The translations under genes were made by a program, and so were the position numbers. From contig NZ_JAMHGA010000032.1 in the NCBI RefSeq assembly GCF_023660105.1, positions 1 through 64,000 on the forward strand: DNA of 64,000 nucleotides, in the 5' to 3' direction. The notes beneath the pieces were generated by a model. That model was not told the origin of the DNA. It made no database searches and saw only the letters and a program-made list of their open reading frames with translations. Below, piece after piece: positions 24,197-32,687 of this stretch (its first letter is position 1; every line of letters begins with the position of its first letter). This stretch comes from Desulfovibrio aminophilus (GTDB lineage Bacteria > Desulfobacterota > Desulfovibrionia > Desulfovibrionales > Desulfovibrionaceae).

Positions 24197-26245
24197 GTGA
24201 GCAAGAAGAAGCCTTCCGGCAAGTATCTGTCCACTCTGCGCAACATCGGCATCATCGCCCACATCGACGCGGGCAAGACCACGCTGACGGAGCGCATCCT
24301 CTACTACTCCGGCCGCATCCACCGCATCGGCGAGGTCCATGAGGGCACGGCCACCATGGACTACATGCCCGAGGAGCAGGAACGCGGCATCACCATCACC
24401 TCGGCCGTGACCACCTGCCCCTGGCGGGACTGCCTGGTGAACATCATCGACACCCCGGGCCATGTGGATTTCACCATCGAGGTGGAGCGCTCCCTGCGCG
24501 TGCTCGACGGGGCCGTGGGCGTGTTCTGCGGCGTCTCCGGGGTGCAGCCCCAGTCCGAGACGGTCTGGCGGCAGAGCGAGCACTACCGCGTGCCCAAGAT
24601 CGCCTTCGTGAACAAGCTGGATCGGCCCGGCGCGGACTTCGCCGCCGTGCTGGAGTCCATCGCCGCGCGGTTGCGGGCCCGGCCCCTGGCCCTGGCCGTG
24701 CCCGACGGCGAAGGCCCGGAACTGCGGGGCATCTTCGACCTCATCGAGGAGAAGCGGCTGGTCTTCGACCAGGCCGAGCAAGGCGCGGAGTTCGCTGTGT
24801 TCGACTGGACGGACGAGGAACGCGCGCGTCTGGCGCCCTGGCGCGAGAAGGTCCTGGAGGCCGCCGCCGAGGAGGCCGACGACCTGATGGAGCGCTACCT
24901 CTCCGGCGAGGACCTGGCTCCCGGGGAAATCCGCGCGGCCCTGCGCAAGGCCACCCTGGGCATGCGCCTGGTGCCCGTGCTGGCCGGTTCGGCGCTCAAG
25001 AACATCGGCGTGCAGCCGGTCATGGACGCCATCTGCCACTACCTGCCCGGCCCGGCCGAGGTGCCCCCGGCCGAGGGCCTCGACCCCGCCACCAAGTCCA
25101 GGAAGTCTTTCCCCGTCTCCCCGGACGCCCCGCTGTCGGCCCTGGCCTTCAAGGTCAGCCTCGACTCCGGCCGCAAACTCGTGCTCATGCGGCTCTATTC
25201 CGGCATGCTCCAGGCCGGGGACACGATCTACAACTCCACCCGGGGCGTGCGCGAGCGCGTGGCCCGGCTGTTCAAGCTCCACGCCGGGCGCAAGGAGCAG
25301 GTGGAGCAGGCCCTGGCGGGCGAGATCGTGGCCGCCGCCGGCATGAAGGACGCGCGCACCGGCGACACGCTCTGCCTGGAGTCCGATCCCCTGGTCCTGG
25401 AGCGCATCGCGGACTACAGGCCGGTGATCTCCGTGGCCATCGAGCCGCGCAACTCCGAGGAGTCCGGCAAGCTGGAAGAGGTGCTGGAGAAGTACCTCAT
25501 GGAGGATCCCACGCTGGCGGTGAAGCACGACGAGGAGACCGGCCAGGTGGTCCTCTCGGGCATGGGCGAACTGCACCTGGAGGTCATCCTGGAGCGCATG
25601 TCCCGGGAGTTCGGCCTCGCGCCGCGTTCGGGCAAGCCCCAGGTGGTCTATCAGGAAACCGTGGGCGGCCGGGCCGAGGCCTTCGAGGAATTCCACCGCG
25701 AACTGGGCGAGGTCATGCATTACGGCGGCGTCCGACTCTCGGTCGAACCCCTGGCCCGGGACGCGGGCCGGGACGTGGTCCTGGAGGTGGACGCCCAGAC
25801 CTGTCCGGCGGCCTGGCTGGAGGCCGTGGCCGAGGGGGTTTCCGACGGCCTGCAGAGCGGCGTGGTCAAGGGCTACCCGGTGCAGGACGTGCGCGTGCGC
25901 GTGCTCGAGCTGGTCCGCCGGGAGGGCGAGTCCAGCCCGGCCGGGTTCCGCATGGCCGCCGCCATGGCGCTCAAGAAGGCCCTGGCCGCCGCCAAGCCGG
26001 TGCTTCTGGAGCCCATCATGTGGATCGAGATCGGCGTGCCCGACGATTTCGTGGGCGAGGTGGTCGGCCTGCTGGGGGCCAAGGGGGCCAAGATCGAGAA
26101 CCTGTTCGACCGGGCCGGACAGAAGGTGGTCCAGGCCCTGGCGCCGCTGTCGCCGCTCTTCGGCTTCTCCACGGACCTGCGTTCCGCCACCCAGGGCCGC
26201 GCGGGATTCGTCATGAAATTCTCCCGGTTCGACGTCCTGGGTTAG
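24197..26245 (+). CDS. Elongation factor G-like translational GTPase (EF-G2 type)
   Basis: A 682-residue five-domain GTPase. Visible are G1 AHIDAGKTTLTE, G2 RGITITSA, G3 DTPGHVDF, and G4 NKLDRPG. Domain II (VSLDSGRKLVLMRLYSGML), domain III (GMGELHLEVILERM), and domains IV-V follow (PIMWIEIGVPDDFVGEVVGLL). The classical EF-G lies with rpsL/rpsG and tufA; this copy stands apart and is shorter, so I read it as a second EF-G paralogue with uncertain translocase or recycling role. Start GTG 24197, with CGGAG upstream. Confidence 0.9.
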   Translation: MSKKKPSGKYLSTLRNIGIIAHIDAGKTTLTERILYYSGRIHRIGEVHEGTATMDYMPEEQERGITITSAVTTCPWRDCLVNIIDTPGHVDFTIEVERSLRVLDGAVGVFCGVSGVQPQSETVWRQSEHYRVPKIAFVNKLDRPGADFAAVLESIAARLRARPLALAVPDGEGPELRGIFDLIEEKRLVFDQAEQGAEFAVFDWTDEERARLAPWREKVLEAAAEEADDLMERYLSGEDLAPGEIRAALRKATLGMRLVPVLAGSALKNIGVQPVMDAICHYLPGPAEVPPAEGLDPATKSRKSFPVSPDAPLSALAFKVSLDSGRKLVLMRLYSGMLQAGDTIYNSTRGVRERVARLFKLHAGRKEQVEQALAGEIVAAAGMKDARTGDTLCLESDPLVLERIADYRPVISVAIEPRNSEESGKLEEVLEKYLMEDPTLAVKHDEETGQVVLSGMGELHLEVILERMSREFGLAPRSGKPQVVYQETVGGRAEAFEEFHRELGEVMHYGGVRLSVEPLARDAGRDVVLEVDAQTCPAAWLEAVAEGVSDGLQSGVVKGYPVQDVRVRVLELVRREGESSPAGFRMAAAMALKKALAAAKPVLLEPIMWIEIGVPDDFVGEVVGLLGAKGAKIENLFDRAGQKVVQALAPLSPLFGFSTDLRSATQGRAGFVMKFSRFDVLG

Positions 26246-26353: not shown

Positions 26354-26425
26354 TGCCAGTTGGTCGTGCTTTTGGGAGAGGTTGAAATGAACCTCCGGTG
26401 CGCCGGAGCGAGAAGGGGACCCATT

Positions 26426-28513
26426 ATGCGCGGTACTGTGGTGGTCTGGCTGGCCGGGGTGGCGATCATCGTCATGATCACGGCGGCGTCCCTTGGTCTG
26501 GACTGGAAGTTTCTGGTTGCGGCGGGTGTCCTGGCCTTGGGGCTGTCGGCCTGGGCCGCCGCCCTGGCGAACCGCCTGTCCGGGGGGATTCGGTCCGCCG
26601 TCTCCGCCTTTCGCGAGAAACATGACCCCGAGGCCCTGGCCGCCGCTCCGGGCGAGGCCGGGGATCTGCTGGCTCCGCTGCGCGAGGAAGTCGCCGCCCT
26701 GCGGAAGGACGCCGTGTTCTTCGGCGGGGCCGTCCGGGCGGCCAACAACCCTCTGCTGGTCTGCGACCGCCAGGGCAAGATCGTCTTCGCCACCAAGCCG
26801 TTGCTGGACATTCTGCGCAAGCCCTCGGCCCAAGTGCTGGGCCTCACGGTGAGCCAGGCCTTCTACAACCGCGACGGCGCCTCGGTCACGGAAAAGGTCA
26901 TGGAATCGGGCCAAGCCGTGGACAAGGAGGTCGAACTGGACCTTCACGACGGGCGCAAGCTGCCGATCCGTCTGGCCTCCAACGTCATCACGGACGCGGG
27001 GGGCAAGGTCATCGGCGCGTTCAGCTCGTTCATCGACCTTTCCCAGCGCGTGGCCGAAATGCGCCAGATTGAGGAACAGCGCGCCCAGGTGGCCGAGGTC
27101 GGCAAGGAAGTCTCCACCCTGGCCGAACGGGTGGCCTCGGCTTCCGAGGAGCTGTCCGCCTCGGCCGACGAACAGGCCCGGGGCGCGCAGAAGCAGAAGT
27201 CCCAGACAGACTCCGTGGCCACGGCCATGGAGGAGATGACGGCCACGGTTTTGGAGGTGGCCCAGAACGCGGCGGCCACGTCCCAGGCGGCCGACGAGGC
27301 CCGGACTTCGGCCCACCAGGGCGTGGACATGGTCGGCCAGGCCGTGCGGGGCATCAACCAGGTTTCCGAATCCGCGGGCAAGCTCTCCGAGGTTCTGGCC
27401 CAGCTCGATTCGCAGGCCGCCGAGATCGGCCGGATCATCAACGTGATCAACGACATCGCGGACCAGACCAACCTTCTGGCCCTGAACGCGGCCATCGAGG
27501 CCGCCCGGGCGGGCGAGGCCGGGCGCGGTTTCGCGGTGGTGGCCGACGAGGTGCGCAAGCTGGCCGAGAAGACGATGACCGCCACCAAGGAGGTGGAGGA
27601 GGCCATCGGCACCATCCAGCAGCGTTCGCGCCACGCCACCGAGTCCATGGACGAGACGGCCCGACAGGTGCACGCCAGCACGGACCTCTCCAACAAGGCG
27701 GGCGAAGCGCTCCAGACCATCATGCAGCGCATCGAGGACATGGTCATGCGGGTCTCCCAGATCGCCGCCGCCGCCGAGGAGCAGTCCTCGGCCGCCGAGG
27801 AGATCAACCGCAACATCGAGGAGATCGCCCAGGTCGCCCGCGAGGCCGACGAAGGAGCCTCCCAGGCGGCCGTGGCCACCCGCGATCTGGCCGAACTGGC
27901 CCAGGAACTGCTCACCGTGGCTTCGCACTTCACCGGCGGCGGGCAGGAGGCGAGCAAGCTGCGCCAGTCCGAGGGCGAGATGAAGGGCGTGCTGCCCCGC
28001 ATCACCCAGGACTATGTGCGCGAGGCCTACGGTCAGGACGCATTCGAGGCCATGCAGGAGAACATGGGCAAGCCCGTGTTCCTGCCCACGGCCAGCTATC
28101 CGGACCAGGTCCTGCATCAGATGGCCGAGTTCGTGGCGGGCCGCAAGGGCGGCTCCACCCGCGATTTCTTCCTCGGCATGGGCCGATACACCATCAAGGC
28201 CTTCCACAAGATGTACGGGCGCTACTTCAAGAACGAGGACCTCAAGACGTTCTACCTGCGCATGAACGACCTGCACGCCCAGCTGACCAAGGACCAGCCG
28301 GGCATCAAGCCGCCCAAGTTCAGCTACGAGGACAAGGGCAAGACCCTGTTCATGAACTACCGCTCCAAGCGCGGACTGTTCGACTACTTCGAGGGCATCC
28401 TTCTGGGCGCCGCCGAATTCAAGGGTGAGCGGGTCAAGATCAAGCTCATTCCCATGGACAAGGAGACCGCCCGCGCCGAGATCACCTTTCTCGACGCCGG
28501 AGCCGGGAAGTAG
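26426..28513 (+). CDS. Methyl-accepting chemotaxis protein with PAS and C-terminal H-NOX heme domain
   Basis: A 695-residue receptor. Two closely spaced membrane segments (~3-22, ~28-48) leave no periplasmic sensor. A PAS domain follows (~98-205). The MCP signalling hairpin has its tip at ~339-385 ([38 protein letters not shown]). An H-NOX domain spans ~519-695. The H-NOX part has the proximal heme ligand His617 in MNDLHAQL (domain position 99), PPKF, and the heme-propionate motif Tyr645-x-Ser647-x-Arg649. Tyr654 aligns with the distal tyrosine that stabilises O2 in Thermoanaerobacter H-NOX. It therefore should sense O2 or NO in the cytoplasm and drive the adjacent CheA. ATG 26426 follows AAGGGGA; ATG 26387 is a viable alternative. 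No C-terminal CheR-tethering pentapeptide is seen. Confidence 0.93.
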
Positions 28514-28539: not shown

Positions 28540-30699
28540 ATGTCGGATGATCTGAACAGGCAGGTGTTCCGAGAGGAGGCGTATGATCTCCTGGGCGAAC
28601 TGGAGACGACCCTGCTGGAGTTGGAGCAGACGCCCGGCGACCTGGACGTGGTGAACCGGGTGTTCCGGGCCCTGCACACCATCAAGGGCTCGGGCTCCAT
28701 GTTCGGATTCGAGGACATCGCCGCCTTCACCCACGAGGTGGAGACGGTCTTCGACATGGTGCGCAACGAGGAGCTGGCCGTGACCACGGAGCTCCTCAAT
28801 CTCGTGTTCCGCGCCCGCGACCACATCCAGAAAATGCTCGACGCCGACGGCGGGGCCGTGGACGCGGAGGTCCAGCGGGAAATCCTGGACGGCCTGGCCC
28901 GGGTGTCCGCCGCGCCGTCCGAACTGGCCGCCGCCGAGGAAGGTCCGGCTGGAGACGCCGCCCCTGAGGCCGCCCTTGGGGTCGAAGCGGGAGAGCCGGA
29001 AGCGGCCCCGGCCGCGCCCGAGGAGTGCGGGTATGCCGTGCGCATCCGCTTCCGGGACAGTCGTCCGCCCGAGGGATTCAGCCTTGAGCCGCTGCTGGAG
29101 GAGCTGGGCAAGCTCGGCCCCTGCGGCGTGTCCCCGGAGAAGGCGCTTGATCCGGCGAGCCCCGGCCCGGCCTGGAACGTGACCCTGCGCACCACGGCCA
29201 CGGAAGAGAACATCCGCGACGTGTTTTTCTTCTCCGAATTCGACCTGGACGTGGAGGTCCGCCACCTGGACGACGCGGCCCAGGCCGGAGAGCCGGTCCG
29301 CGAGAGGGCGGCGAAGCCGCCCGTGGACAAGAAGCTCGGGGAGATACTCGTGGAGGAGGGGGCCATCGAGCCGGACGATCTGGCCGAGGCCCTGGCCCAG
29401 CAGAAGCCGCTGGGCCAGATCCTGGTGGAGTCCGGCAAGGTGGACAAGGAGCGGGTCGAGCAGGCCGCCGCCAAGCAGGCCCAGGCCCGGCGCGAGGTCG
29501 GGGAGAAACGGGCCGAGGAGGCCTGCGCAAGCCACCCCGAGGCCGTGTCCTCCATCCGCGTGGCCGCCGAGAAGCTGGACAACCTCGTGGACCTTGTGGG
29601 CGAGCTGGTCATCGTCCAGGCCCAGATTTCCCAGGTGGTGGGCGAACGCGCCGACCCCGTGCTCACGGCCCTGTCCGAGGAGCTGGAGCGGCTGTCCGAC
29701 GCCCTGCGGGACAGCACCCTGGGCATCCGCATGCTGCCCATCGGCACCACCTTCAGCCGCTACCGCCGCCTCGTGCGCGACCTTTCGGCCGAGTTCGGCA
29801 AGGACATCGCCCTGGTGACCCAGGGCGCGGAGACCGAGCTGGACAAGACGGTCATCGAGCGCCTGGGCGACCCGCTCATGCATTTGCTGCGCAACAGCAT
29901 CGACCACGGCATCGAACCCCCGGAGGAGCGCCTGGCAGCGGGCAAGTCCGCCCAGGGCACCATCCTCCTGGCCGCCGAGCACTCCGGCGGCGAGGTGCTC
30001 ATCCGCATCAGCGACGACGGCCGGGGCATGGACGCCGAGGCCATCCGGGCCAAGGCCGTGGAACGCGGCCTGATCCAGCCCGAGGCCGAGCTTTCGGAGA
30101 AGGAGCTTTTCAAGCTCATCTTCGAGCCCGGCTTCTCCACGGCCAAGAAGCTCACCAGCGTCTCGGGCCGGGGCGTGGGCATGGACGTGGTCAAGCGCTC
30201 CATCGACTCCCTGCGCGGCAGCGTGGAGATCAGGAGCCGAAAGGGCCAGGGCTCGGAGATCATCATCCGCCTGCCGCTGACCCTGGCGATCATCGACGGC
30301 CTGCAGGTGCGCGTGGGCGACGCCTTCTTCGTCATTCCCCTGTCCCTGGTGGAGGAGTGCGTGGAGCTGGCCCGCCAGGACGTGGAGGAGGCCGGGAACC
30401 AGCGCATCCTCTATCTGCGCGGCGAGATCGTGCCCTACATCCACCTGCGCGATTGGTTCGAGGTGGACGGCGCTTCCCCGGCCATCGAGCAGATCGTCAT
30501 CACCCGGGTGGAGGGCAGCCGCATGGGCATCGTGGTGGACAGCGTGATCGGGGAGCACCAGACGGTGATCAAGACCCTCGGCCGCGTCTACAAGGACGTG
30601 GAGGGGATTTCCGGCGCCACCATCAAGGGCGACGGGAGCATCGCCCTGATCATCGACGTGCCGCGTCTCGTGCGCGGCGTGGTGGCGGCCTCCCAATAA
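28540..30699 (+). CDS. cheA: Chemotaxis histidine kinase CheA
   Basis: A 719-residue kinase. The P1 Hpt domain carries His46 in [11 protein letters not shown]2-like region is at ~165-245 ([16 protein letters not shown] onward). Around 258-315 is a repeated segment ([39 protein letters not shown]) resembling type II secretion ATPase N-terminal (GspE_N/MshEN-like) units. P3 dimerisation starts ~328. The P4 ATPase has [10 protein letters not shown] (N box, ~448) and DDGRGMD (~492). The P5 CheW-like domain is at ~590-719. It phosphorylates CheB and a CheY not in the window. It is 26 bp after the H-NOX receptor and 12 bp before cheR. Confidence 0.96.
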
Positions 30700-30711: not shown

Positions 30712-31593
30712 ATGGCGAACCGGGACGGCGACGGAGACGCGCGGCGGCGGGCGGTGGAGGCGTGCTCCGCCACGCCCAAGATGAGCGACACGGATTTCCG
30801 TCGTTTCAGCGAGTTCATCACCTCCGAACTGGGCATCAAGCTGCCCCCGGCCAAGAAGACCATGCTGGAGGCCCGGCTGCAGAAGCGGCTGCGCGCCCTG
30901 GGCCTGGCCTCGCACCGCGACTACTGCGAGTTCCTGTTCAGCCCCCGGGGCATGGAGCAGGAGCTGGCCCAGCTCATCGACGTGGTGACCACCAACACCA
31001 CGCATTTCTTCCGCGAGCCCCGGCATTTCGAGATCCTGGCCGGGAAGGTGGTCCCGGACATCCTGCGGCGCAAGGGGCGCGGCCGGGTGGCGGTCTGGAG
31101 CGCGGGCTGCTCCACGGGCGAGGAGCCCTACACCCTGGCCATGGTCCTCTCGGAATGCGCCGAGGCCAATCCCGGATTCACCTTCTCCATCCTGGCCACG
31201 GACATCTCCACCCAGGTCCTGGCCCAGGCCAGGCGGGCCGTGTACGCCGAGGACCGCATCGAGGGCATCCCCGAGGCCCTCAAGCGCAAGTACCTGCTGC
31301 GCAGCAGGGACCGCTCCCGGCGGCTGGTGCGCATGGGGCCCGAGCTGCGCTCCGTGGTCAGCTTCCAGCGCCTGAACTTCATGCGCGAGTTCGACTTCCG
31401 GGAGGACCTGGACATCATCTTCTGCCGCAACGTGGTCATCTACTTCGACCGGACCACCCAGGAGGGATTGTTCAAGCGCTTTTGCGGCAAGCTCGTGCCC
31501 GGCGGCTACCTGTTCATCGGCCACTCCGAGAGCCTCGCGGGCATGGATCTGCCCCTGGTCCAGGTGGCCCCGACCGTGTACCGCAGAACCTGA
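30712..31593 (+). CDS. cheR: Chemotaxis protein methyltransferase CheR
   Basis: A 293-residue SAM-dependent enzyme that methylates glutamates on chemoreceptors. The N-terminal helical domain (~25-95) includes [18 protein letters not shown]. The SAM site [18 protein letters not shown] and the [10 protein letters not shown] motif are intact. It sits between cheA and cheB, a typical adaptation pair. There is no TPR extension. Its first ~20 residues are charged and not conserved-looking; the start is kept because it directly follows the cheA stop. Confidence 0.96.
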
Positions 31594-31610
31594 GGAGCGG
31601 GAGGGATCGC

Positions 31611-32687
31611 GTGCGGAAATCCATTCGTGTGCTCATCATCGACGATTCGGCCGTGGTCCGGCAGACCCTGGCCCAGCTCCTCGGCTCGGACCCGGACATC
31701 GAGGTCATGGCCGCGGTGGTGGACCCCCTGGTGGCCGTGGAGAAGATCAAGAGCGAGGTCCCGGACGTCATCACCCTGGACATCGAGATGCCGCGCATGG
31801 ACGGCCTCACCTTCCTGCGCAAGCTCATGAGCCAGCATCCGATTCCGGTGGTGGTCTGCTCTTCCCTGGTGGAGCCGGGCGACGAGACCACCTTGCGGGC
31901 CCTGGAATACGGGGCCGTGGAGATCGTGACCAAGCCCAAGGTGGGCACCAAGAAATTCCTGGAGGAGTCGGCCATCCGCATCTGCGACGCGGTGAAGGCC
32001 GCGGCCCAGGCCCGGATCAAGCCATTCCGGGGCGGCGGCCGGGACATGGAGGTCGCGCCCAAGCTCTCGGCCGACGCGGTGCTCGCCGCGGGCAAGCCGC
32101 AGGCCTTGCGCACCACGGAGAAGATCGCCCTGGTGGGCGCCTCCACCGGCGGGACCGAGGCCCTGCGGGTGTTCCTGGAAGCCATGCCCACGGACTGCCC
32201 GCCCCTGGCCATCGTCCAGCACATGCCCGAACACTTCACCCAGGCCTTCGCCAACCGTCTGAACGTCACCTGCCGGATCAGCGTGCGCGAGGCCCGCGAC
32301 GGCGACTCCATGCTGCGCGGGCAGGCGCTCATCGCCCCGGGCAACAAGCACATGCTGCTCAAGCGCAGCGGCGCGCGCTACTACGTGGAGGTCAAGGACG
32401 GGCCCCTGGTCTCGCGCCACCGGCCTTCGGTGGACGTGCTTTTCCGTTCCGGGGCCAACTACGCGGGCAAGAACGTGGTGGCGGCGATCATGACCGGCAT
32501 GGGCGACGACGGGGCCCGGGGCATGCGCGAGCTGTTCGACGCCGGGGCCTACACCATCGCCCAGGACGAGGCCAGCTGCGTGGTCTTCGGCATGCCCCAG
32601 GAGGCCATCAAGCACGGCGGGGTGCACAAGGTTCTGTCCCTGGAGGCCATCGCCGGGGAGATGGTCCGGCGCTGCAACGCGGGCTAG
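31611..32687 (+). CDS. cheB: Chemotaxis protein-glutamate methylesterase CheB
   Basis: A 358-residue response-regulator methylesterase/deamidase. The receiver domain has acidic residues 11-12 and phosphoacceptor Asp57 ([10 protein letters not shown]). The linker is ~125-165. The esterase domain has catalytic Ser178 (GASTGG), His204 (QHMPEHF) and Asp300 (GMGDDGARG). It removes methyl groups set by CheR and is activated by CheA phosphorylation. The start is GTG 31611, after GAGGGAT. Its stop TAG overlaps that of the convergent DUF190 gene within the palindrome CTAG. Confidence 0.97.

Follow-up and report, generated by a model that had tools for sequence, protein, structure and literature searches.

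The chemoreceptor of Desulfovibrio aminophilus described here is very probably an O2 sensor of a known type, placed at an unusual end of the receptor, because nearly all of its relatives in the order Desulfovibrionales share the distal Tyr of its H-NOX domain. The explanation that best accounts for the observations as a whole, to which we give a probability of roughly 0.78, is a membrane-anchored O2 chemoreceptor that carries its H-NOX domain at the C terminus and signals to the neighboring CheA.

The gene lies at positions 26426..28513 (+) of the window (the whole stretch of 64,000 nucleotides that was analyzed). Its product consists of an N-terminal hydrophobic (TM) region, a PAS domain (26732..27052 (+), residues about 103-209; PF13426/PF08448/PF00989), an MCP signaling domain (27281..27835 (+), residues 286-470; PF00015, E 4.5e-50), and a C-terminal H-NOX (HNOB) domain (27983..28444 (+) by the Pfam extent, 27974-28510 by the modeled extent). 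The HNOB match (PF07700, residues 520-673, E 2e-33) scores 116 bits, where the cut-off is 25.5, and the HNOB and MCPsignal matches lie within a single frame. The identity of the domains and the architecture of the receptor are established, and this is the one H-NOX domain in the D. aminophilus genome. Residues are numbered from the ATG at 26426, which gives a protein of 695 aa. The full open frame spans 26360..28513 (+), with a TTG at 26360 and further in-frame ATG codons at 26387 and 26426. As a ribosome-binding-like site accompanies the ATG at 26387 (GGGAGAGG upstream), the true start may lie there, 13 residues further upstream.

An AlphaFold2 model of the C-terminal domain (input of 84 sequences) has a mean pLDDT of 93.7 and a pTM of 0.89, and the domain is confidently predicted to adopt the H-NOX fold. 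The best Foldseek matches of the model are entries for the H-NOX domain of Caldanaerobacter subterraneus (Thermoanaerobacter tengcongensis; Tt H-NOX), with 1u55 at E 4.7e-13 and TM 0.87. VIA-align recovered H-NOX structures of all kinds, with Z scores of about 20-23 for crystal structures (22.5 over 174 residues for 1u55); the NO-selective proteins of Shewanella oneidensis and Nostoc and sGC beta1 share this fold and range of scores. The sequence-only reading had equated Tyr654 with Tyr140 of the thermophile protein, and this assignment holds because no gap interrupts the phmmer alignment (against PDB sequences; 1u4h/3nvr, E about 1e-16) of this segment to the Tt sequence YVSKRKMYDYF. In the heme-free model, a structural check on whether Tyr654 falls outside the distal pocket located it (as residue 138 of the domain) close to where helix 136-150 begins, right after the YxSxR turn, which is the place of Tyr140.

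The register of the heme-pocket residues is likewise established, at an overall identity of 28% (45 of 158 aligned residues). The distal Tyr654 is encoded at 28385..28387 (+). The proximal heme ligand His617 (28274..28276 (+)) aligns with Tt His102, and the propionate-binding motif Y645-x-S-x-R649 (28358..28372 (+); Tyr645 at 28358-28360, Arg649 at 28370-28372) aligns with Y131-x-S-x-R135 in invariant columns; both were said to be intact, and both align without gaps. Trp9 and Asn74, the partners of the Tyr in the Tt triad, are accessory and lie outside the definition of the O2-binding subfamily. Their apparent replacement by Thr was borne out by the alignment, in which Thr occupies the position of Trp9 (28004..28006 (+)) and that of Asn74 (28190..28192 (+)). 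At domain residue 81 (28214-28216), where Tt H-NOX has Phe82, Tyr is found in 79 of the 80 clade rows; it may place another polar group close to the pocket, or its role may be structural.

The distal Tyr is a feature of the whole order rather than an oddity of this protein. Among 80 distinct Desulfovibrionales rows, 78 have Tyr at position 140 and the other two have Phe, which rules out a chance match of Tyr654, and in a ranking of 173 columns by entropy the Tyr140 column stands 21st, close to the proximal His (18th). Position 74 is Thr in 71 rows, Ser in 8, and Ala in 1, so that 79 of 80 have Thr or Ser; position 9 varies across the clade (Met, Ala, Thr), and Trp9 is lost. At the level of the family, H-NOX was found in 60 of 149 sampled genomes, nearly always C-terminal in a frame of ~700 aa, and the remaining Desulfovibrionales include further carriers. 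A scan of genome contigs found only 2 relatives because its reach is limited to close kin. The other H-NOX proteins found across the phylum are short frames of about 190-250 aa, and six sampled stand-alone Desulfobacterota H-NOX proteins have Leu, Val, or Met at position 140. Three plasmid-borne H-NOX proteins of other phyla or classes have Leu (Comamonadaceae), Phe (Rhodobacteraceae), and Val (Persicobacter) there. In a clostridial MCP-fused protein (Acetoanaerobium, L115), Trp9, Asn74, and Tyr140 are all present and the H-NOX domain is N-terminal.

Two natural variants within the clade look like losses of O2 binding and are ready natural controls. L061 (4557-5078) has Tyr in place of the proximal His and Phe in place of the distal Tyr, and because the proximal His is also gone, it has probably lost heme. 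L080 (3938-4480) keeps the proximal His and has Leu9, Ala74, and Phe140; it is the only row that lacks a hydroxyl at position 74, and Tyr140 is missing from it too, a pattern that fits a Thr-Tyr partnership, although it is one event only. A further sequence, L077 (3901-4434), is closely related to the C-terminal H-NOX domains but lies in a short 183-aa frame that apparently contains no MCP; it is possibly a split gene, a frameshift, or a true stand-alone copy.

H-NOX proteins of strict anaerobes have been described as combining a distal Tyr, O2 binding, and MCP fusion, and the combination is taken to mean that the Fe(II)-O2 complex is stable and that chemotaxis to O2 is probable (PMC12329717; PMC8738867). 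Because the D. aminophilus domain falls under this published rule and the Tyr is conserved throughout the order, we consider it likely, with good confidence, that the predicted O2 binding by the receptor's H-NOX domain is real. In Tt H-NOX, Tyr140 is reported to stabilize the oxy complex, and even for this type protein the function has yet to be demonstrated (PMC9814294). The absence of Trp9 and Asn74 would count against O2 as the ligand, as would the binding of NO and CO by Tyr-type H-NOX proteins.

One alternative is a receptor that serves chemotaxis mainly as an NO sensor, with weak O2 binding in vitro and with NO from nitrite or from denitrifying neighbors as the natural signal. H-NOX proteins with the Tyr also bind NO, and a weak Tyr pocket (the clostridial KD is 53 uM) could fill poorly with O2 in an anaerobe. 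However, the NO-selective members, which either stand alone or are coupled to kinases or cyclases, lack the distal Tyr (PMC12329717), so that no use is known among them for a residue that is near-invariant here, and in published surveys MCP fusion goes along with the Tyr. We regard an NO sensor as unlikely.

It is less probable still that the domain senses redox state or heme availability by switching between Fe(II) and Fe(III), with Tyr654 ligating or stabilizing ferric heme and O2 sensed indirectly through oxidation. Oxidative activation is described for other H-NOX proteins (PMC12329717, PMC7108781), and Desulfovibrio has another redox/O2 MCP, DcrA, but Tyr140 of the closest solved relative is reported to stabilize the oxy complex and not to ligate the iron (PMC9814294). 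Least probable of all is that Tyr654 is kept for packing only, in a pocket that holds no O2; the flanking helix is strongly conserved overall (F/D/Y/F/E/G), but other H-NOX proteins hold the same fold with Leu, Val, Met, or Phe at position 140.

If the receptor does bind O2, its affinity is not readable from the pocket residues. The residues nearest the ligand are alike in the H-NOX proteins of C. botulinum and Caldanaerobacter, and their KD(O2) values of 5.3e-5 M and 4.4e-8 M are ~1000-fold apart (PMC7356049). The caution that affinity might differ from that of the thermophile was thus well placed, and it applies more strongly than had been stated. The description of the receptor as "aerophobic," by contrast, finds no support in the sequence and is one option for the sign of the response. 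Avoidance of O2 is not implied, because Desulfovibrio are reported to swim toward low O2 as well as away from O2 (PMC3944678) and the D. aminophilus genome encodes a cytochrome bd oxidase.

In the Desulfovibrionales clade, the usual order is reversed and H-NOX comes after the MCP domain. In 75 of 77 rows, 166-169 residues separate the MCP tip from the start of H-NOX, and because this spacing is near-constant while the linker sequence varies, the length of the linker seems to be under constraint. The next gene downstream of the receptor is cheA (28540..30699 (+); Hpt, dimerization, HATPase, and CheW domains), followed by cheR (30712..31593 (+); Pfam) and cheB (31605..32687 (+), start approximate; response-regulator and methylesterase-like, assigned from sequence). 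An MCP signaling domain and an adjoining CheA are both present, as in an MCP-fused aerotaxis receptor. This synteny is established: the receptor adjoins cheA in at least 44 loci, and other members (many of those in groups g26 and g29, for example) lack a cheA in the part of the locus that was read. An EF-G gene (24197-26245 (+)) lies immediately upstream of the receptor, and the order EF-G, MCP-H-NOX, cheA is repeated in about 28 loci, a conserved but unexplained linkage of a translation factor to a chemotaxis cluster.

The heme loading, O2 complex, signal path, and behavior that we infer for the O2 chemoreceptor would be as follows. The C-terminal H-NOX domain of the membrane-anchored protein would bind b-type heme through His617, and O2 would be held by the hydroxyl of Tyr654, with the Thr at position 74 perhaps standing in for the Trp and Asn that position Tyr140 in the thermophile. 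Binding or loss of O2 would shift the H-NOX lobes about a conserved Gly hinge, the shift would pass through the near-fixed-length linker, which is attached to the MCP hairpin at its C-terminal helix, and the linker signal would alter the activity of the CheA encoded next door. CheR and CheB would adapt the signal, and the receptor would tune swimming to O2 as a repellent, an attractant, or both, according to concentration. A bolder and rather doubtful extension is that the order possesses a distinct receptor class, in which an O2-type H-NOX with a Tyr plus Thr/Ser pocket, in place of Trp-Asn-Tyr, signals from the C-terminal end of the MCP hairpin through a linker of fixed length; such receptors would respond to O2 in the micromolar range and guide cells to a favored zone of low O2 rather than merely away from O2.

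The link between the Tyr, MCP fusion, and strict anaerobes is textbook knowledge, and the argument for O2 binding is sound but standard; what is modestly new is the C-terminal, Thr-partnered variant, with its order-wide Tyr and reversed domain order. The Caldanaerobacter chemoreceptor (1u55, 1u4h) shares with the D. aminophilus protein the H-NOX fold, proximal His, YxSxR motif, Tyr140, MCP fusion, and an anaerobic host. Its H-NOX domain is N-terminal and has the Trp9/Asn74 partners, whereas the D. aminophilus receptor has Thr at both positions, a C-terminal H-NOX behind the MCP domain, and a PAS domain upstream. The C. botulinum protein (SONO) is also an N-terminal fusion with a distal Tyr, and its O2 complex is weaker. 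DcrH of Desulfovibrio vulgaris, from another sulfate reducer and proposed in the literature to mediate negative aerotaxis (avoidance of O2), likewise has an O2-binding module at the C terminus of an MCP, but that module is a di-iron hemerythrin and not a heme H-NOX. An H-NOX of D. desulfuricans is reportedly the C-terminal domain of an MCP. Our literature search, which did not cover older surveys for architecture, found no dedicated study of a Desulfovibrio H-NOX. Aerotaxis of sulfate reducers has been described, but the identity of the heme-based receptor behind it is not settled; the present protein is an order-wide, cheA-linked candidate whose different distal hydrogen-bond pair would make it a mesophilic comparison for Tt H-NOX.

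The Tyr may have arisen once or twice. In a free tree with long branches, the clostridial pair stands apart from the Desulfovibrionales clade and Tt lies beside a Leu-type row. Convergent acquisition in Desulfovibrionales and Clostridia, at which this tree hints, is unsupported, since an AU test did not reject a single Tyr clade of Desulfovibrionales and clostridial sequences (p 0.69).

The D. aminophilus genome bears the dissimilatory sulfite reductase gene dsrA and gave 29 MCP matches. A second MCP (G000:C28:25047-26114) resembles DcrH in carrying a C-terminal hemerythrin, in a single 591-aa frame, so that two different O2-type modules, H-NOX and hemerythrin, occur at MCP C termini in one genome.
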